From: Aphrocallistes beatrix
Lineage: Eukaryota > Porifera > Hexactinellida > Sceptrulophora > Aphrocallistidae
Assembly (NCBI GenBank): GCA_963281255.1
Contig: OY725493.1
Span: forward strand, 3,131,857 to 3,195,856
Direction of reading: 5' to 3'
Length of the DNA: 64,000 bases
A model generated the notes under the pieces. The model did no database searches and was not told where the DNA came from. It saw only the letters and a list, made by a program, of their open reading frames with translations. Below are positions 1,075-35,010 of the stretch, one piece after another. Numbering within the stretch: the stretch's first letter is position 1; each line of letters starts with the position of its first letter. The position numbers and the translations under genes were made by a program.

Positions 1075-1184
1075 TAATCATTCATACTATTAAAAATCGA
1101 TTAATGTTTGTGTATATATCACAGCCTACGAACTATAGCCTATTCACGGTACGAATTTACCTCACCATGGATTACTACAAGTCT

Positions 1185-2345
1185 GGGACGCCTGCAAATT
1201 ACCAACAATATGGTTGTCAAATTACCAACAGATTTATGTTGTCAAATTACCAACATATGTTGTCATATTACCAACATATGTTGTCATAATACCAACAATT
1301 GTTGTTATAGCACTAATGAATCCATCAAACTGCTAAAATTTGGTCAAATATGATCTTCCAAGTTTTCTCGATGATCAACCTACAGTATTTATACGCAAAT
1401 CAATCGAATAGCTCAATCATTATTATTTCTGCAAGTATGGCATCAAATTACGAATGTTCGAGTTATAAAAAGAAAAATGGACACATATTTCAGTCACAAA
1501 CTGGATACAAATATATACGAAACTTTGTAAGAAATAACAACATTTATCTGTATTGTGCACTTAGTAAATCGGACGAAAAATGTAAGGGTAGTGCAAAAAT
1601 TGATGTTATAACTAATGAATTATTTGAAATGCGTAAACATAATCACGAGCTTGGCGCATATAAACATTAAATATATAAACTAAAAAACAAATGTAAAGTT
1701 CAGTCCAGCCTCTCTCGCGAAAGCTTAAGTATAGTATTTCGAGACACAACACGAAATCACCCTTCTGCTCCTCATTTTTCATATAAAAATATAGAGAGTG
1801 CAATGTATCGTGCTAGACGTGAGGTTGAACCACCCATACCAGCAAGTGCAGTAGAATTTACTCAAACCATTTCGTCTACAATTCTCAACGTGAACTATAG
1901 GCATTCTGTAATGACCCATATTGAAGAAATTGATCATTATGGAGCAATATTCTATTCAGAAAAGATGGCCCATGAATTATTAAGTGTAGATACGATTAGT
2001 TTTGATGGAACATTCTATACTTGTCCAAAACAGTTCACGCAATTGTGGACCATTTCTGGAAAATTTGGAATTCACACATTTCCAGCGATTCACTGTTTCA
2101 ATATTTGGTTATATTAATTAACTATAGACTTTATATTGTTGGTCATTTGAAGACATGTGTTGGTAATTTGACAACATTGTTGGTAATTTACAGGCCTTTT
2201 TTTCTGCATATTACCAACAATAGACTTTCTATTGTTGATAATTTGAAGACATGTGTTGGTAATTTGAAGACATATGTTGGTAATTTGACAACATAAATCT
2301 GTTGGTAATTTGACAACCATATTGTTGGTAATTTGCAGCAGTCCC
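1185..2345 (+). mobile_element. Complete MULE (Phantom-like) with minisatellite inverted ends and 8-bp duplication
   Basis: The 1161-bp element begins GGGACGCCTGCAAATTACC and ends with the inverse GGTAATTTGCAGCAGTCCC. It is flanked on both sides by ACAAGTCT (1177-1184 and 2346-2353), an 8-bp duplication within the 8-10 bp range of MULEs. Both inverted ends, over 100 bp each, are built from tandem units of the motif TTACCAACA. Inside is a FLYWCH-MULE frame cut short by the right end, so this is an internally deleted derivative. An uninterrupted version of the target is found on the minus strand at 34957-34964. Confidence 0.8.
1437..2117 (+). pseudogene. FLYWCH-MULE transposase, truncated
   Basis: From the ATG at 1437 the frame encodes a FLYWCH-type zinc finger: FQSQTGYKYIRNF, IYLYCALSKSDEKCKGSAK and a final HNHEL. 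The C..C..H..H spacing fits the family. A TAA at 1668 interrupts, but the same frame resumes as IYKLKNKCK and continues through ESAMYRARR to TISFDGTFYTCP and FTQLWTISGK, the start of a MULE catalytic domain (first Asp in FDGTF). The chain then ends inside the right inverted repeat, so the rest of the catalytic core is gone. The pseudogenes at 8890 and 21829 show the same order of blocks. It is not expected to be active. Confidence 0.7.
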
Positions 2346-2508
2346 ACAAGTCTATTTTGAAACAAACCATAATGTTTGAAATAAATTTGACTATGATAAA
2401 ATGCAGTGTATAATATAGGATAAGTATCGCTAGTTTATATCATATTACCTATAATATTTTATACATTTTCTCCCTAATTCCCAGTTTATTCATCCACCTC
2501 TTAGCAGT

Positions 2509-2727
2509 ATGGCAAGTAGGTGTAGTGTAGCCAACTGCTGCTCCAATTACGACTGAACTAATTACGTTCCAGTGTTTGAAATGTTGAATCATTGGTCCAA
2601 GGAAAAGCAAGATGAATGGCGAAGGTTTGCCCATAGAGATGATGCATGGAAATTGGCGAGAGTCTTCATCTGTGCGAGACATTTCTGCGACGAGGATATA
2701 CTACTCCCCAGGGTGACGGTACAGTGA
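2509..2727 (+). pseudogene. THAP-domain exon remnant, copy 1
   Basis: The frame from ATG 2509 reads MASRCSVANCCSNYD, a stop, then VPVFEMLNHWSKEKQDEW, FAHRDDAWKLARVFIC and ARHFCDEDI. This is the C2CH pattern of THAP DNA-binding domains (Cys pair near the start, Trp in the middle, then C-x2-HF). One in-frame TGA near residue 16 breaks it. The downstream text resembles the loop after THAP in P-element-like transposases. The copy at 6708-6937 is a close relative. THAP domains bind DNA in P-element transposases and several cellular factors. Confidence 0.65.
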
Positions 2728-2783
2728 AGAAAGTTTCCAGAGAACCAAGTCTTCGGGTAGTGTCAAGCCCATCAATCTTCTTA

Positions 2784-4092
2784 CTTAGGTCATTTCAAAA
2801 GTACTGATCACTGTTGATTTTTGACAGCTAGTGTATATCTAATGCACCCATTAATATAATCCAGATAGCATTACCCATTCCCTCCTAATATCTAAAACAA
2901 ATTTTAAGATAGCATAAATATTTTTCTTACAATCATCATTTCAATCTTGTCAGTTTTGGCTACATACACATTTATGGCTTCAAAATCGTCAGTTATTGAG
3001 CAAGAGTAAAGGGCGTATATTAAGTTTCGTTCACTGCTAAAAGATTCGAACAGGAACATCCACAATGATCTCGTGGAAGTTTGTGGAGATCAAGCACTTG
3101 CTTATTCCACGGTTAGAAGATGGGCTCCACTATTCAGAGAGGGAAGAGACAGCATTGAAGATGAGCATCGGACTGGTAGGCCTAAATCTGCAACCTGTGA
3201 ACCCTCAATTGAGTTGTTGGTGAATTTCTTCGAAATGACCCTTGCTGCTCTATTGAAGAGATTTCTAAGTATACGGATATCTCACCAGGAAGTATTTACC
3301 GCATTCTGAAGGAAGATCTCGGAGTAAGGAAGGTTTTCGCTCGATGGGTGCCGTATTTGCTGTCAGAGGCCCAGATGAAACATAGGGTGGAATGTTGTGA
3401 AAATCTTCTTCTACAGTACGGAAGATTTTATGCAAGGCGACTCTATGAGATAGTAACCATAGATGAAACTTGGATTTACTATTCACAACCGTAAATAAAA
3501 GGAAAAATCTAAGTGTTGGCTGCTTCCGGGCGAACCCCGACCTAAAAAACCGCGTCCAGATTTTCGTGCCAAGAAGGTAATGTACGCAGTTGCATTTGAC
3601 GCCTACGGCCCAGTTGCTCAAGTTTGCGTTCCGAAGGGCCAGAATGATACTGGAGACTTTTATTGCATTCATGTGCTCGCAGAAGTCAGTAAACACTACA
3701 CAGAGCGTCGGCCGAGAACTGGTCCTCGTGGAATAAAACTTGATAATGCCAGTAGCCATCAAACTAAACAAGTCGCCGCATACATCGAAGATATAGGGAT
3801 GAAAACACTGAATCACCCTCCCTATTACCCTACCCTAAGTCCTTGTGACTTCTGGTTGTTTTCCAAGCTGAAAAGTCATCTCTCTGACAAGGAGTTCACC
3901 AGTCGAATAGAGATCGGATTCGCCATTCATAAGTACCTGAAATCGATCCCACAGACGGAGTATAAAAAGACATTTCGCAGCTGGTTAGACCGTCTGGAGA
4001 CTATTTCGAGAATATATAATTAAATAACACATCAGTCATTGCTTAAGATCAAAATGAGGGGGGAGTGATCAGTACTTTTGAAATGACCTAAG
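2784..4092 (+). mobile_element. Complete mariner element, degenerate
   Basis: The 1309-bp element has perfect 28-bp inverted ends beginning CTTAGGTCATTTCAAAAG and lies between TA dinucleotides at 2782-2783 and 4093-4094. It interrupts the composite element between CTTCTTA and TAATTGTC. Copy 2 reads CTTCTTAATTGTC without interruption at 6991-7003, giving a paralogous empty site. Confidence 0.9.
2974..4023 (+). pseudogene. Mariner transposase, broken
   Basis: Start MASKSSVIEQE is followed at once by a stop. Later blocks are recognisable in several frames: YSTVRRWAPLFREGRDSIED, RRLYEIVTIDETWIYYS (first catalytic Asp), FDAYGPVAQVCVPKGQ, GIKLDNASSHQTKQV (second Asp, with the usual LLHD shortened to LD) and LSPCDFWLFSKLK (third Asp in CDF). 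Several frameshifts and stops rule out function. The YSPDLAPCD block has become YYPTLSPCD. Confidence 0.75.
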
Positions 4093-4095
4093 TAA

Positions 4096-4718
4096 TTGTC
4101 CTTCATGTTTAAGTGTGAATTGGGACTCCCAATTGTCATACATCCTGAAGAAGCAGTCGGCGAAGAAGACGAGGCTATGGGAATGCATGGTACTGGTGAA
4201 ATGGAGGAGTTTAGAGTAGATGGGTTAGATGGACCTAAAACTGCAGATGATCAGGACTGCTTTAGAAAGTTTATTGTTGGTGAGAGCGCTTAAAACGAAG
4301 TCAGCTGAAGGTATGCGAACACCTGATCTCTATATTCTGTGAACATGGAGCACTCACATTTTCCAGACAGATAACGGGGGTGAATTTACAATTAATCTGC
4401 TGAATACGACACTGCGGAATGGCGGCTACAGGTACTTCTTACTCACAGTTGATCTCTTTTCACATTACGAAGAAGCAATCCCGTAGAAAGACCAGACCGC
4501 TACGTCCATCGTTATCCCATTCATGATAGGATCGGTCTATCGTGGATATGGCGTACCAAATATTCTCACAGATCAGGGGAAAATATGGATGGGTTAGCGG
4601 TGCAAGAACTGTGTTACGACTTAGGAATTACTAACACTACACGGTAACACCCGGAGTCCGATGTGATGGCCGAAAGACATATTGGCTTCGTCAAACAAGT
4701 GATAAGTTGCTTGATGCT
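4096..4718 (+). pseudogene. Acidic frame plus chimeric integrase fragments, copy 1
   Basis: An open frame to 4293 encodes an acidic stretch (HPEEAVGEEDEAMGMHG, GLDGPKTADDQD). Beyond its stop, other frames encode an integrase motif around FQTDNGGEFTINLL, resembling SCAND3/ZBED9-type integrases, directly joined to GGYRYFLLTVDLFSHYEEAI, a Ty3/gypsy-type first-Asp motif, and later GVPNILTDQG-like text. Two integrase pieces of different ancestry are therefore abutted. The same junction occurs in copy 2. The piece stops where family H resumes. Confidence 0.55.
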
Positions 4719-4893
4719 GTTTTATACCTTATAATTAATCAATCTGGGCCTAGGCTTCCAAAAGGCGCCTCCGACGGACACAAAATTTCAGCCAGCCGCG
4801 CAGGCAAGCAAGCGAAGCATGCATGTAATAATAATAAATCAAATTCTTGATTCGTAAAACTGTTGTTTAAAATATTAATCTTTGTAACTTAAC

Positions 4894-5133
4894 TTGCAGA
4901 TGGACCCCTGGTCCAATTGTATAGGGGGTCCATTTTTGTCAAAACAACTCTCCAATCCAGTCTATTTTTCTTCAAATTCTGGAACAGAAAGTTATGAATC
5001 TTACAAACTTTGGACCAATATGGCTAATATCAATGGACATTATTTGTTCAAACTCAATTTTCAGGCTACTGAAGTACAATATGTGAATTTTATAAATATC
5101 TTCAAGAAATGTAAACTCTTAACGATACAATAA
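4894..5133 (+). other. Unassigned short open frame (79 codons)
   Basis: The reading frame begins right after a pyrimidine-poor AG (ACTTGCAG) and runs through DPWSNCIGGPFLSKQLSNP and FKLNFQATEVQYVNF to a TAA. I recognise no domain. It is on the strand opposite to the atrophin homologue and lies 420 bp downstream of its third exon. It could be an exon of another gene, a repeat remnant or chance. The following 400 bp contain weak inverted repeats (GTCCTCTTTAATTG at 5134, CAATTAGAGAGGAC near 5230) and no gene. Confidence 0.2.
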
Positions 5134-5553
5134 GTCCTCTTTAATTGTCTACCAGGAGTAAGGCATCAGAAGTGGACAATTAGAGAATTCGTGTGATTGT
5201 ACACATCCTAGTATATATAGATTGCGTTCAATTAGAGAGGACAAAATGTAATGCATTTGTATGAGTATATAGCACATACAATTTAGCAGTAATACTATAC
5301 AAGGCGGCGCTAGCGCTCTACCATAGGTGAGGCACAGGCTTCACCCTCGAGCCTCCACTGCTTACAGTATTCCTAGGTACCAGATATCATTTTGTAGCAC
5401 ATTTTGGTCTGGGAAAATAAGGGTGAATAATAATATATTTAAGTAGAAAATTAGATAACCTAAACAAATCGAGAGAACTTATATACATTTAAACTCACAA
5501 GGAAAATATAATAGTACATAAGATAATAATCACTAAATACAAAGAGGCAATAC

Positions 5554-5913
5554 CTTTCCAACTTTTCGAATTCCCTTATAAAAGCTTTTGGCTTCGTCTT
5601 GAGTCCAAGACTTTTCATAGATAATATCAAATGCATTTGGCTTTTGTAAAATATGTCTTAAGGAGGTTTTTGTACAATAATTATCAAAGAAAAGCAAATC
5701 ATAAGAGTTTTGAGTCAATCTATCACTTTGCATTGCCAAAATGCCGTCATCTATTCTCCCTCTTAAACACCAACCGGAATGCATCGAAATACTTCTAGTT
5801 GCTTTAAGATACATCTGTAACTCTGAATCTTCAATCATATTAGGACTCCATATTTGAGATTCTATAACTGCATCAGATAAATTAGAAGTTTTAGAAGCTA
5901 ATGGAAGTGTAGC
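5554..5913 (-). CDS. RERE: RERE/atrophin homologue, coding exon 3 (ELM2 and start of SANT)
   Basis: This exon encodes residues 259-378. A pyrimidine-rich acceptor TTTTCTTCTCTAG precedes GCT, and the exon ends in AAG before GTATTG, 360 nt, phase 0 at both ends. The join with exon 2 reads GASHQ-ATLPLASK, matching GPSHQAKLPDLQ of RERE. The exon contains QIWSPN, ELQMYLKATRSISM (ELM2 core; RERE has LLMYLRAARSMA), a divergent middle with ILQKPNAFD, and SWTQDEAKSFYKGIRKVGK (SANT; RERE has CWTEDEVKRFVKGLRQYGK). ELM2-SANT modules recruit histone deacetylases in MTA, MIER and RERE proteins; that is family knowledge. Reading through the donor would add only five residues before a stop, so splicing is expected. 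The rest of SANT, the GATA finger and the atrophin tail are not seen between 1 and 5553 and should lie beyond the left edge. Confidence 0.85.
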
Positions 5914-6707
5914 CTAGAGAAGAAAATATTAATAAAATACAGGTTCAGTCTTTTTAAAAATATGCTTTGGAAGGGTATTATAATTTCAAAATTACTTCAT
6001 TGAGGTATTTTCATCCCATATTTGCACTATTCGTCAAACTATCATAAAATGCGGTTAGCCAGCACCTTTTCTGGAATGCAAAGTCATTTTTTGAATTTTT
6101 TTGAAACTCCCAACAAGTCTACCAGATACAGCAATGTATTCTTACTATATACTACTGAATTTAGCAATATAAATATATAAGTATAAATGCGAATAAATGC
6201 CTGTGAATGCTTTTATTCATTTTTAATTACTCATTTTACATTGTTCTTAACATCTAAACTTAAAATCTCTATCTCGGGATTTCCATTAGGCGATGAAGCA
6301 CTCGATTTTCGATATCTTATAACTTGGGGATTTGATCCCTGATTTACCAAAAAAAAAGGACGTTTCGCCGTTTTTTGGCACTTTTTCAGACACCAATAAA
6401 ATTCTCAATTTTTGTCATTTTAACTTTCTTTTGGTCCTATGAGGTGGTAAATATGATAGACTATCTATGATTCGATTTTGGAAGCATTTGTTTCCTTGGT
6501 ATGTTCTAAAAGAATTTTTGTAAATATAAATACTAATTAATCGAGTTTTAATAGTAAGGATCTGCAAAATATTTGGGAAATATTTGTACTCTTAGTGTGT
6601 GATATAGGATAAGTATCGTTGTTAGTTTATATTGCATTTACCTACAATCTTAAATTTTCTTCCATATTCCGAATTTGTTCATCCACATATACATTTTTCT
6701 TAGCAGT

Positions 6708-6937
6708 ATGCCAAATAGGTGTAGTGTAGTCAACTACTGCTCCAATTAAGACTGCACTGATTACGTTCCAGTGTTTGAAATGTTGAATCACTGGTCCAAA
6801 TGAAATGCAATATTAATGGCAAAGGTTATCCCATAGAGATGATGCATGGAAATTGGCGAGAGTCTTCATCTGTGCGAGACATTTCCGTGACGAGGATATA
6901 CTACTTCACCTCGATATTCCCCAGTGTGACGGTATAG
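6708..6937 (+). pseudogene. THAP-domain exon remnant, copy 2
   Basis: MPNRCSVVNYCSN, stop, then DCTDYVPVFEMLNHWSK and ARVFICARHFRDEDILLHL followed by DIPQCDG. It has the same C2CH THAP layout as the copy at 2509. Two early stops and a small frame disturbance make it non-functional. Its continuation VKKVSRKPPGLRK is typical of the basic loop that follows THAP domains in P-like transposases. Confidence 0.6.
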
Positions 6938-7000
6938 TAAAGAAAGTTTCCAGAAAACCTCCTGGTCTTCGGAAAATGCCAAACTCATCAATCTTCTTAA

Positions 7001-8040
7001 TTGTCATTCATATTTAAGTGTGAATTGGGGCTCCCAATTGTCATACATCCTGAAGAAGCAGCCGAACATTTCAGCGAGAAAGACGAGGCTATGGGAGAGC
7101 ATGGAACTGGTGGTATGGAAGAGTTTAGAGAAGATGGGTTAGATGGACCTAGCACTGCAGATGACCAGGACTATTTAGCAAGTTATTGTGCTGAAAGCGC
7201 TTAAAACGAAGTAAGCTGAAGGAATGCGAACACCTGATCTCTATATTCTGCGAACATGGAGCACCTCATATCTTCCAGATAGATAACAGAAGTGAATTTA
7301 CTAATAACCTGCTGTGCAGTGGTGGCTACAGGTACTTCTTACTCATAGTTGATCTCTTTTCACATTACGTCGAAGCAATACGTTGAAAGCCGGACCGCAG
7401 CGTCCATCGTTAACGCATTCATGGAAGGATGGGTCTATCGTGGATATGGCGTACCAAATATTATGCTCACAGATCAGGGGAAGAAAGTGGGTTAGCGGTG
7501 CATGAACTGTGACACAACTTAGGAATTACTAACGTCACACCATACCGTAACACCCGGAGTCCGATTGGATTTCCGAAAGACGTATCGGCTTCGTCAAACA
7601 AGTGATACGTTGCTTGATGCTCGAAAGCCACCTAGAAACGGGTTCCTGACCGTCGTTGTTACAAGAGATTACTTTCAACTGCAGTAATCTGGACAACGCG
7701 TCGTGTAAAATATGTCGACACATGTTGACGTTTGGCCGTTTGCCGAGATCACCAATCGATATGCTCATTAGCACTGGTAATACTCCAACAAAAGTCACAG
7801 GGTCAGCCAGGCAGTATAACGAAACAATGGTCAAGAAGAGTCAAGAATTGAGTGAAATTGCACGAGAAAACCAGGAGTGCACCCAATCGGAGGCTAAGAA
7901 GAAGTATGATAAAGGCAAGAAAACATCCAACATAAGCACGGGAGATTGGGTCATGATTAATATGAAGGACTATTCGTATACAAGTTATTTTGTAGTAATA
8001 GAGAGAACTATCACAGTTTTCCACCTCTTTTCTATTAATT
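7001..8040 (+). pseudogene. Acidic frame plus chimeric integrase, copy 2
   Basis: The first frame, to 7204, is acidic (HPEEAAEHFSEKDEAMGEHG, GLDGPSTADDQD). In the next frame ISIFCEHGAPHIFQIDN and SEFTNNLL form a DN-x2-EF integrase block. GGYRYFLLIVDLFSHYVEAI follows at once, then YGVPNIMLTDQGK and a late frame (7656-8042) with SNLDNASCKIC, RSPIDMLI and SEAKKKYDKGKKTSNISTGD, which resembles the end of a gypsy integrase just before its basic tail. Multiple shifts and stops are present. The double set of catalytic blocks shows a fusion of two integrase lineages. Confidence 0.55.
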
Positions 8041-8315
8041 AATATTCATTACACGCCATCAAATTTTAGCAAAATATAGATATGTTACACAGTTGTATTT
8101 TGCACATAAGACTTGAAGTAATCCATGGATAAATACCATGAACAGGCTATACGTAGTTACGTAGGCTGTGTTGGAAAATACAAGTACGTATATTGAAATC
8201 GTGACATTTTGTCTTATATCGTGATATTTTGCTAGATTTGAGCGGTCTGTGGTGAGATCCTGACTACTTGCACTAAATTGTGAGACTCACGAAGAGATCG
8301 TGAGGAGTCCGCACA

Positions 8316-8615
8316 TTTTGATCAAAGACACATGTATAATTTTGATCAAATTTCTCAAGTAGAACTTTGATCAAAATAGTTAACTTGATAAAAACGACGT
8401 TTTTGATCAAAGTACTACATTTATCAATATGTGTAGAACTTTGATCAAACTATGTAGAATTTTGATCAAATCTGGAAATGCCACTTTTGATCAAAGTTCT
8501 ACAGTAAGAGGTGATGTAGAACTTTGATCAAATCTGGAAACGCCACTTTTGATCAAAGTTCTACAGTAAGAGGTGATGTAGAACTCTGATCAAATCTGGA
8601 AATACCACATTTTGA
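8316..8615. repeat. Array of palindromic decamers TTTGATCAAA
   Basis: Nine exact copies of the palindrome TTTGATCAAA and one with a single change occur in 300 bp. Flanks alternate between TAGAAC before the core and GTTCTAC after it, so successive units point in opposite directions. The last part is a true tandem repeat of about 62 bp (TCTGGAAACGCCAC to GAGGTGATGTAGAAC). The preceding 120 bp carry loosely repeated CGTGAKATTTT words. There is no coding potential. Confidence 0.85.
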
Positions 8616-8889: not shown

Positions 8890-10225
8890 AGTAATGATTT
8901 CTTGTACAATCGCTCCTCTTCAAATGAACATTGTACATATTTGAGGTGTACTTTATGGAGAACCAGAGGAATAGAGTGTCCTGGATTTGGGAAGATTATC
9001 CATGAAACAAATCTCTTTCATATAAATAAAGACCACTGTCATACAATAGAGGCTTATAAATCTGAAATAATTATCTTAAACAAAAGATTAAACGTGCTGC
9101 TGAAATCTCAACCGAAAACCTCCAACAAGTTTTCGATAATGTCATAAGCGGGGATCAAGCAGGAGCCTTAATATCGTTTCGGAATGTACGCAACACTATG
9201 CTCAAAAGAAGAAGGATAGAGGTTCCGGGCAATCCAAAAACGCCGGGAGAATTTGAAAGAATGTTGAAGCAAACTCGGTTTGCAAAGAACTTTCGAACTA
9301 TGGTTATTGTCTCGGAAGGTTTTGCAGCAATTTTTGCCACCGACTTAATGCTTTCGGCTCTACAGGACGCCAATTACATAAATTTCGACGGAACTTTCTA
9401 TGTAGTCCCGAAACTATTTTATCAATTATCCACTATCTTTATTCAGAGAGGTCATCATGCTCTACCAGCAATACATGTATTGATGTCACAAAAATGCGAA
9501 TCTTTATATATAGCTATTTTACAAAAGATTGTAGAAATAATCCCTAATTTTCGTCCAGAATTAACAATAGGGGATTATGAAAGAACTCCACGCAATGCTT
9601 TCAGAGCTATTTTTACACGCATTGTTGTATCTGGTTGCCTTTTTCATTATTCAAAAGCTATATGGACTAAGGTGAAAAAATTACAGCTTAATTCTACTTA
9701 TGCTAGAAATTCGAACTTGAATAAATGGATTCGGGCAATAATGAGTCTGCCACTACTACCACAAGAAGATATTTTATCTGTATTTCAAATTCTATCAAAT
9801 GACATATCCTCACTGAATCTAACCTCAAAAGATGAAAACCTTGTCATTAAACTAAAAAGGTATATTCAAAAAGAATGGCTCAAAAGGATTGATATGTCTA
9901 TTTTTATGGGATCCAGAAGACGAACAACTGCTGTGAAATTTACCACAAATAATTAAAGTCCGTAATTCGTGTTAAAAAGCATAACATATGAAGTTTCATG
10001 GAACTATTTCAAAGGATTTTGGTCAAATATGACCTGGAGTATGAAAGTATATCAAACGGATTAGAAATCGGTGAGCGAAGGAAAAAATATGTTGAAAATG
10101 AAAACACCCGAGAAATTTGCAAAGAAAAACTTCTAAGTATGGAATATACTCCCATCGAATTTATTAAAAACATATCCACCACAATTGGTAAATGTCTAGA
10201 TTCGGAACTTTGTGTTGAAAGCTGA
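8890..10225 (+). pseudogene. FLYWCH-MULE transposase, nearly full length but broken
   Basis: Frame 8902-9147 holds the end of a FLYWCH finger (HCTYLRCTLWRTRGIECPG, FHINKDHCHTIEAYKSE). A frameshift near 9095 leads into ISTENLQQVFDNVISGDQ and then an open frame to 9955. That frame includes NYINFDGTFYVVPKLFYQL (first Asp), HHALPAIHVLMS, LTIGDYERTPRNAF (second acidic position) and GCLFHYSKAIWTK (CxxH-type block), the canonical MULE catalytic order. After a stop, 9998-10225 encodes ERRKKYVENENTREICKEK and YTPIEFIKNISTTIG, shared with the C-terminal part of the remnant at 21829. At least two breaks remain. Confidence 0.75.
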
Positions 10226-11043: not shown

Positions 11044-12188
11044 CAGGGTAGGGTGGCCGAGAAAAATTGAGACAAAAATGAAAAATGTGTATAAAATTCG
11101 ATAATTCAGTCTATTCAAGTCATTTTCTCCCAAGCTTTCCTAATTTTTCTTTCTAGATCTTGCAAACTATTTGGGGGTACGCGATATACCTCCTGCTGCA
11201 GCATACCCCAAATTCCGTAATCGAGAGGATTGAGATCGGGTGAGTTTGGGGGCCAATCTTCTTTTGTCCAAAATCTCAAATATTCTGCGTTTCTCTTAGC
11301 TGTGTGGCATGGTGCGGAGTCTTGTTGGAAAACAAGATCGTGCTGTTGACAAAGGGGAACAACGATGGGAGCTAAAATCGCACTTTGCTACCGATCTGCA
11401 TCCAAAGTTTCCCCTTGTCGGAAGAAAACAAGATCGGTTTTCACGTTATGAGCTACCCCTGCCCAAACCATCAGTTTCCGACTGAATTTGCTCATTTCAA
11501 CTACTGTTTTCTCATTAAGAGACTTCTTAATCCCTTCCTTCACGTAAACTCGATCGTTCTGCCGATTAATGGGCTGATCCATTAAAAAAATTTTTCATCA
11601 CTGAACAGCACTCGCCTGTGCAAATCGCCTTCCAAAAATCGACGTAAAGCTCTCGACCTTGTAGCTCTCTTGACCCTTTGGGGGCTTACGAGGGCCTGTT
11701 TTGTTTCTTTCTTCCTTGCCCTTAGTTTTAAGTCTCTTCCAACAATGTCTTGGGCCGTTGATTTCGATATTCCGATCTCCCTCGCGATTTTCCGGACTGA
11801 CTGGGCGGGATTCCGCCGGAGACGATCAGTTAGCTTTCTCTTCGCAATACGAGTGGTCTCTAAGAATTTAACTCCTGAACCCGTTTTTCTGGAGCTATTT
11901 CCACCATTTTGGAGCTGTTTGACAACTCTGTAGATTGTAGCTCGTGAAATATCTACGTACTTTACATGTCTCCATATTTGAGAAGCAGTTTGTCCATGAT
12001 TAAAAAATGATTGAATAACTTTTCTCTTTTCTAATTCTTTCATTTTCGAATTAGCATTCACAATTTTACAATGATAATACAATATTGCTATGCAAAAACA
12101 GAATTTTAGTAGCTAATGTCATTTTAAATTGATCCAAGGTTGACTTTTAAAGCAAGTAAATTTGTCTCAATTTTATTCGGCCACCCTG
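11044..12188 (-). mobile_element. maT-type (DD37D) Tc1/mariner element
   Basis: The 1145-bp element lies between TA dinucleotides (11042-11043 and 12189-12190). Its right end reads inward CAGGGTGGCCGAATAAAATT; its left end is the same apart from a 5-bp duplication after CAGGG, and both continue TTGAGACAAA. An isolated end of the same family lies at 24045-24082, and a second coding copy starts at 28488. Confidence 0.85.
11115..12082 (-). pseudogene. maT transposase with three lesions
   Basis: The protein starts in frame at 12082. Residues 15-150 contain two helix-turn-helix segments (KRKVIQSFFNHGQTASQIW, RATIYRVVKQLQNGG, IAREIGISKSTAQDIV). VLFSDEKFF supplies the first Asp. One T has been lost from a T run at 11582-11590, after which MDQPINRQNDRVYV and FSRKLMVWAGVAHNVKTDL continue in another frame. 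A TAG at the QR/RQ junction near 11388 replaces a Lys codon seen in the second copy. FQQDSAPCHTA gives the second Asp and WPPNSPDLNPLDYGIW the third. Only 32 residues separate the last two; the second copy has the canonical 37. Confidence 0.75.
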
Positions 12189-34072: not shown

Positions 34073-34849
34073 GACAATCAGAATCCATGAATGCAACCTT
34101 TTAATCTTTTAGGTTTTCTTTATTTAAAAATATTCTATTATTTATTTCAGACTAAGCAATGCAATTCTATTGTTTAAAGATTAACATTAATTATACCATA
34201 AACTAGTGTGAGATTATGAAAAAGATAAAATTCAAATTCAATTGATACGAGTACACAACAAATGAACGGATTAATATTTGCTACTATTAATATAGAACTG
34301 AATAGTATTACACAATATTACTGAAAAAGATTAGTATGTTTATTTATATATACCATAAAAGAATAAAACTATGCAGATTTTTCGTGATAATTTCGCAATA
34401 AAAAAGATATAAAAAGTCAGAATGATTATGCTCACTATACACTTTTTGGACTTTTGGGATTTGTCCTTTCTATTGTTGCCCTATCAAAAATTAAAACATT
34501 AGAGATGCAGATAACGAAGTTTAAAATGGGCTAGAACAGCAGCATTTTATTCTAAAAAGAGCATATTGCGCAATCACATGATGACATTTAAAATTTTCAT
34601 ATGGTATAATAAATATATAATGTCTATTGTATACGTCTTTTGATTTATCGGTCTAATTAAACTTTGAATTGTGTCAAAACTGGGCTTTTATTTTCATGCC
34701 TTCTCGGTTACATACAACACGCCCATGTATTAAGTAGGTCATGTTCCTAAGTTTATGAAGTCCAATTTTCGTAGTTTCCTTGTATTTAATCGGAAAATTT
34801 TGACCCAATATTCTTTCTCAATTAATCTATGAAAAATGTATGAAAAATT

Positions 34850-35010
34850 GTAAGTATGTGAAACAATATAAACTAACAATGATACTTATCCTATATTATA
34901 CACTGCATTTAATCGTAGCCAATTTTATTTCAAACATTATGGTTTGATTACAAAATAGACTTGTGAGGTAAAATTTGTACCGTAAATAGGCTATAGTTAC
35001 GTAGGCTGTG
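34850..35010 (-). mobile_element. Left terminus of the THAP/integrase composite, copy 3
   Basis: On the minus strand from 35010: CACAGCCTACGTAACTATAG, then CACAAGTCTATTTTG, ACCATAATGTTTGAAAT and TATAGGATAAGTATC. This equals 1120-1184 joined to 2346-2430 of copy 1 without the MULE. It ends before the THAP exon. Confidence 0.7.

Follow-up and report, generated by a model that had tools for sequence, protein, structure and literature searches.

What kind of element carries a THAP exon and two lineages of integrase between inverted ends, and which protein moved it? The question is raised by a repeat in a 64,000-nt stretch of the sponge Aphrocallistes beatrix (assembly GCA_963281255.1, contig OY725493.1, positions 3,131,857-3,195,856, forward strand), the whole of which is called the window below. 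An earlier note on this DNA had taken positions 1120-8170 for one DNA-transposon-like unit, and had offered a P-like element that captured integrases, a Ginger-type relative or a simple nested insertion as its origin. Our analysis indicates that the window very probably holds decayed members of a non-autonomous DNA transposon family resembling the P superfamily, filled with integrase sequence and moved in trans. This reading is drawn because one genomic copy, L026, has a P transposase between the same ends and because a short remnant at another locus, L017, resembles a P footprint. Its observed basis consists of the ends shared with the transposase-bearing copy, 9-bp target duplications, relatives of two of the filler pieces and a broken integrase.

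The element was mapped on L016, a complete copy from the same genome with 1,660 bp between its ends. The repeat family has two decayed copies in the window, both on the + strand and both with the order THAP exon, acidic frame, DN-x2-EF block (DN-EF block below) and GGYRYFLL integrase that the earlier note had described. Inverted CACAGCCTACG ends are indeed present at 1120 and 8170, with a terminal inverted repeat of 66-71 bp (77-83% identical, window end against opposite L016 end), close to the figure of about 65 bp first given. The single unit spanning 1120-8170 was not borne out. The left copy (W1) corresponds to L016 1-1132 and the right copy (W2) to L016 120-1660, and the outer flanks, TTGTGTATATAT and TTGGAAAATACA, share no target duplication at 1120 and 8170. 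As the two maps overlap and no outer duplication exists, a single element was rejected and the copies are regarded as two separate truncated elements, composed as follows.

1120-4714, + strand: left copy W1, 3' truncated, in the pieces 1120-1184, 2347-2786 and 4093-4714.
1120-1184, + strand: 5' terminal inverted repeat region of the left copy, 94% identical to L016 1-67.
2509-2786, + strand: THAP exon of the left copy, broken (from the sequence and its alignment to L016).
4111-4714, + strand: left copy, foreign filler made of the acidic frame, the DN-EF block and the start of the gypsy-type integrase, cut off by a repeat from about 4713.
6594-8170, + strand: right copy W2, 5' truncated, 85% identical to L016 over 1606 columns.
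6594-7016, + strand: P-derived 5' part of the right copy including the THAP exon, 84% identical to L026.
7017-7160, + strand: acidic frame of the right copy, found family-wide.
7160-7312, + strand: DN-x2-EF block of the right copy, homologous to an integrase gene such as L106.
7316-7973, + strand: gypsy-type integrase of the right copy, from rve core to C-terminal part, broken (rve homology of family copy L034; C7 pol frame).
7974-8170, + strand: P-derived 3' end of the right copy with terminal inverted repeat, 83.5% identical to L026.
34833-35010, - strand: third family copy, end only, 82% identical to L016 1-190.

The link with P transposase comes from L026 (C10:1615955-1619736). Besides the family ends, this copy has the first ~543 bp, THAP exon included, and the last ~190 bp, and the blocks at both ends are shared with family copies at 84-93% identity. 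In place of the integrase, its middle holds about 3 kb with P-element transposase frames, which match the TNP-like RNase H domain (PF21787, E 2.6e-7). The order THAP-transposase is colinear with the open frames of two other fetched loci, L073 (955 aa) and L076 (963 aa). L073 matches the Drosophila P transposase structure 6p5a (E 2.2e-9) and carries a THAP domain (PF05485, E 3.1e-9), and the THAP piece of L026 is 39% identical to this THAP region over 64 aa (E 1.3e-12). L026 is flanked by an 8/9 target duplication. Over three shared stretches, L026 differs on average by 10.7%, 12.2% and 8.3% from the copies; family members differ from one another by 5.8-13.6%, depending on the stretch. Because the two ranges resemble each other, L026 is not regarded as an old outgroup. 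The earlier note had set copies with THAP and CACAGCC ends and no integrase against its own proposal. L026 is such a copy, and the P transposase that it holds instead, between the family ends and behind the family THAP exon, supports the first of the three origins proposed, a P-like element that captured integrases.

A further trace of P activity is provided by L017. At its positions 301-332 (C4:1868621-1868652) lies a 32-bp remnant made of 17 nt of one CACAGCC end and 15 nt of the other, between the flanks taatctata and taatctatc, which match at 8/9 positions. It is read as an excision remnant because the Drosophila P transposase makes a staggered cut, 17 bp inside the ends (PMC7776569; this and the other papers cited are drawn on in part). 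The remnant looks like a P-type excision footprint and stands alone: neither the fetched loci, all of them scanned, nor the window yielded a second one.

The family is about 1.66 kb long and occupies roughly 100 genomic places. Searching with the acidic piece gave 108 matches, some copies being split in two (all 120 candidates scored), and the right window copy, with 40 of 248 first-look candidates scored, gave at least 57, of which the long matches are 81-89% identical. The genome contains 155 occurrences (87+68) of the terminal 11-mer, whereas its reversed sequence, taken as a control, occurs 13 times (6+7). Target duplications, which the earlier note had suggested seeking at the CACAGCC ends, were found and measure 9 bp. 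They were scored in 24 distinct copies whose fetched loci include both ends; many had been picked among the first 100 listed end places where two facing ends lay close. Of the 24, 12 were perfect (9/9), seven matched at 8/9, two at 7/9, two at 6/9 and one at 3/9. At length 8, the best match in the same 24 copies was 5/8. The flanks of L007, L011 and L036 are TA-rich, so that their duplications carry less weight. The foreign middle lies at the same place in most of the rows examined, its two junctions being spanned by 33 and 37 of 43 rows; rows that do not span them are truncated, deleted there, or L026.

Four long, two-ended copies (L018, L024, L025 and L027) were considered as autonomous forms and rejected, since they align as family copies with other inserts. 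L018 (4588-5654) and L027 (1621-2691) contain CATAGCCTACT-ended elements of ~1.07 kb nested in the CACAGCC copies, with 7-bp duplications and only ~73% identity to each other. Three other family copies, L014 (C2:5638425-5640312), L015 (C2:5657707-5659594) and L013 (C2:3829569-3832823), have their flanks in common, as if larger stretches had been duplicated.

The filler that stands in place of the transposase measures ~926 bp and comprises the acidic frame, ~171 bp of an integrase gene and ~600 bp of gypsy-type integrase. Its DN-EF block, which we take to belong to the lineage named KRBA2/SCAND3-like, is 90-93% identical at the DNA level to L106 over 170-171 bp in the four copies compared (L030, L046, L053 and L048). 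L106 is part of an integrase gene at C3:4646170-4646370, of which 201 bases were read, and the match lies inside a 335-aa open frame; other relatives of the block sit in frames of up to 689 aa. L025 contains related sequence, with 50% identity across 30 aa (rve E 0.0016, below the cut-off). The gypsy-type piece matches PF00665 (E 1.3e-10, copy L034) and is 60% identical in amino acids to the integrase of a pol frame at C7:3838889; at C7:3837914-3839122, a single gypsy pol frame of 1,189 aa holds RT_RNaseH as well as integrase. The integrase core was also searched against the PDB, with no useful result (best E 0.29). The earlier claim of two integrase lineages proved right, because the gypsy-type homology begins (reference ~826) where that of the L106-type DN-EF block ends (~823), in the same orientation.

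We propose that the transposase core disappeared from a P-like element ending in inverted CACAGCCTACG, of which the 5' end with the THAP exon and the 3' end were kept. The element would have been cut out or broken, and the repair would have copied foreign DNA from two or more sources, so that the three filler pieces took the place of the middle, probably through template switching during P-excision gap repair. The founder would then have been moved in trans by a P-type transposase, with 9-bp target duplication, to the ~100 places that the family now occupies.

Among the alternatives, simple nesting, that is, a retrotransposon inserted in a P element and then shrunk by deletion to integrase scraps, is better placed than most and still unlikely. 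Gypsy pol frames are many in this genome and nested insertions are common here, two of them in the left copy; but two different integrases abut in the filler in one orientation, and the P middle is gone rather than flanking the insert. The earlier note had regarded LTRs at the integrase junction as a sign of nesting. No direct repeat of 20 bp or more was found inside the filler of the two copies tested (L016 and L031), which therefore have no LTR pair there, a solo LTR being compatible with this repeat test. The paired LTRs around pol of a gypsy LTR retrotransposon are missing from these two copies, and ~926 bp is too short for a full pol. With the filler at the same place in most rows, simple nesting finds no support as regards the integrase; it explains the two interruptions of the left copy, which carry no strand assignment:

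1184-2346: nested MULE-like element bounded by ACAAGTCT on either side, with a FLYWCH domain (E 4.4e-6) and inverted arms of 116 nt (91%).
2781-4095: nested mariner bounded by TA on either side, its inverted arms perfect over 32 bp.

The label MULE-like was given by eye because the second frame of the element has no MULE domain match. The mariner matches Transposase_1 (PF01359, E 4.7e-6); its HTH_48 match (PF17906, E 0.0002) is below the PF17906 cut-off. The end of the left copy near 4713 is the start of a different dispersed repeat of 66-115 bp, with copies near 58, 961, 4713 and 10558. On the other side, just outside the 8170 end, window positions 8332-8612 consist of tandem, partly palindromic units of ~62 bp. 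Further on, a frame of 296 aa at 9066-9956 contains a domain of MULE transposases (PF10551, E 1.8e-8), and frames resembling, by eye, a broken Tc1/mariner-type transposase lie at 11115-12112 on the - strand.

The THAP exon retained in the family raises another alternative, in which a useful short THAP protein of the founder served to repress or titrate the transposase, in the manner of Drosophila KP. Short P derivatives can encode such repressors, for example the 207-aa KP protein (PMC7776569), and a 54-column THAP piece in the L016 frame had 1, 4 and 7 variable sites of 18 by codon position. This signal vanished when full THAP frames were used: 30-31 copies read in three reference frames (L031, L036 and L045) gave no third-position excess, with 26, 22 and 23 of 86 columns each variable in the L031 frame and similar values in the two others, and the odds of a repressor were lowered because of this. 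Among 32 matched copies in one alignment, three keep the THAP frame open along 95% or more of the piece, and the THAP region diverges by 9.8-10.7%, like the rest of the element. These tests register change after the spread of the family and not in the founder lineage; we consider the repressor improbable.

The length of the target duplications brings in Mutator-type transposases. Maize Mu makes 9-bp duplications (PMC2774946), a length typical of Mutator elements and seen here, and at least 121 MULE domain matches were counted in the genome (150 of 168 candidates scored). A Pack-MULE-like family driven by such a transposase was thus considered, and was dropped after L026, with its P transposase between the same ends, and a sister pair on C12. 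Sister ends of the CACAGACTACG type adjoin a transposase 52-69% identical to that of L026, and the C12 pair brackets P-transposase matches with a 9/9 duplication. The L017 footprint fits P excision, and inspection by eye of the long CACAGCC copies with two ends that were read, a subset of the genomic ends, revealed no MULE transposase. A Mutator origin is accordingly given very little credence.

Other P families of this genome have shorter duplications. In families ended by CATGG or CATAG, 7/7 duplications were found in 7 of 9 pairs (CATGG 5/7, CATAG 2/2), and an additional CATAG pair, L078/L105, matches at 6/7 by eye. It is likely, in our judgement, that P clades within one genome differ in strand-transfer spacing, 9 bp for the CACAGCC clade and perhaps the CACAGACTACG one, and 7 bp for CATGG/CATAG, beside 8 bp in flies and fish, and that the commonest product of the 9-bp clade here is a chimera with a middle from two integrase genes. 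If this is true, a comparison of sister clades could trace the spacing rule to residues of the transposase.

A numerous CATGGCCTACTTAACTC-ended P family was also noticed (60+62 matches within 3 mismatches; for example C9:1746918-1750494 and C15:1974640-1978230). Five of its seven pairs have 7-bp duplications, and the C15 locus holds a 990-aa THAP-transposase frame.

The captured integrase itself is broken in nearly all copies. A stop at reference 1063-1065, before what we take from rve biology to be the third catalytic residue, is present in 37 of the 39 copies with letters there, 35 of them with the same codon, the remaining five of 44 rows, including L017 and L026, being gapped. Two bases present in L106 are absent from the DN-EF block of all four copies compared. 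In the alignment used for the THAP frame, and at the same threshold, the acidic piece is open in 13 of 38 copies, the DN-EF block in 11 of 39, the integrase core in 15 of 39 and the integrase tail in 17 of 39. A codon-position test on 43 rows, including L026, gave no third-position excess for the integrase frame: 76, 61 and 73 of 172 columns each were variable at the laxest cut-off, and 17, 21 and 17 sites at the strictest, where the second position is no longer the lowest. The integrase is a dead passenger and, judged from the shared stop, contributes nothing to the element. The earlier note had suggested looking for an unbroken frame from THAP to integrase, and none was seen.

Ginger transposons have an intact integrase-type transposase, TGT..ACA ends and duplications of ~4 bp. 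The present family, with CACAG ends, a 9-bp duplication and a stop in the integrase of 37 out of 39 copies, gives no support to a Ginger-type relative. The least credible alternative, a DNA transposon of a new class that moves by means of a THAP-integrase fusion protein of its own, has in its favour the constant order of the two pieces in the copies read and the 178-179 aa that are open across acidic frame, DN-EF block and integrase core in some of them, but is made extremely improbable by the shared stop, the two lost bases, the rarity of open THAP frames, the lack of a codon-position signal and the P transposase of L026. A tempting false lead, the THAP-integrase transposon, is thereby removed.

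Several observations weigh against a P-like origin moved in trans. The duplication has 9 bp and not the 8 bp of P elements; 5 of the 24 end pairs match at 7/9 or below, and of three CACAGACTACG pairs one has a 9/9 duplication, one an 8/8 and one none. The only two-ended CACAGCC copy found with a transposase is L026, in which it is broken. Taken alone, the THAP piece falls under the Pfam cut-off (E 0.0094 in L026, 0.099 in L031). No source of the acidic piece was found among its 108 genome matches, whose longest open frame has 179 aa, and the exact gypsy source was not found either, the best integrase matches in frames above 300 aa being 63% and 60% identical. Extra conservation of the ends is weak. 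Both outermost ends had appeared to be the most conserved parts (5.8% and 8.0%), in a sample that included copies fetched by their exact end sequence; this observation was dropped because only the 5' end stands out without them. When the comparison is confined to the 29 rows retrieved through similarity of the element body, divergence is 5.7% in the first 60 bp, 9-11% inside and 9.2% in the last 60 bp. Conservation of the 3' end does not hold in these rows, and our confidence in the P-like reading was slightly lowered for this reason.

As to classification, the P-type transposase (in L026) and the N-terminal THAP of the P superfamily are found, and its 8-bp duplication (7-8 bp in Galileo) is not. 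Because the 8-bp length was tested and not recovered, the family is best termed P-like, by its transposase and ends, and would represent an outlying clade rather than a typical P element. The case documents a P-like element apparently rebuilt from other mobile elements, one donor lineage being still recognisable at 90-93% DNA identity. Duplication length varying among P clades of one genome would allow the spacing set by P-type transposases to be studied through their relatives. The two-integrase filler is a curiosity, and the 9-bp P-type clade beside 7-bp clades might be the point for specialists to follow up. A limited literature search found no 9-bp P element and no integrase-filled P derivative.

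Pack-TIRs are defined by a captured non-transposon gene; here two of the three filler pieces are mobile-element integrase, and no source was found for the acidic piece. Animal Pack-TIRs are alike in carrying foreign sequence inside the inverted ends of DNA transposons, with an origin by gap filling or template switching, and the gap-filling model is cited for Drosophila P (PMC8277862). Drosophila P and KP share with the present family the THAP domain and P-type RNase H (here in the transposase-bearing relative) and shortened derivatives, and the single L017 remnant would fit the 17-nt stagger of P; but the duplication of P has 8 bp and the derivatives described are internal deletions, not integrase replacements (PMC7776569). 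Zebrafish Pdre2 has a THAP9-type gene between inverted ends starting with CA, and internally deleted relatives; its duplication is 8 bp and its ends are 13 bp (PMC10983969). Galileo is a member of the P superfamily with a duplication other than 8 bp, mostly 7 bp, as in the CATGG/CATAG families described here, but its ends are long and foldback-like and its duplications measure 7-8 bp, not 9 (PMC4168063). A close parallel is offered by the P-MITEs of Anopheles gambiae (Quesneville et al. 2006, PMC1562414), which have P ends, a middle unrelated to P and many copies, and for which the authors favour P gap repair from an ectopic template. Our family has all that marks a foreign-filled P derivative, namely P ends around an unrelated middle, many copies and the lack of a transposase, whereas its size of ~1.66 kb is not that of a MITE, its duplications are 9 bp instead of the 8 bp reported for Anopheles P (PMC1562414), and it has kept a THAP exon and holds two integrase pieces as filler. 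Foreign-filled P elements are already known; what is new here is the two-integrase filler and the 9-bp duplication beside 7-bp clades.

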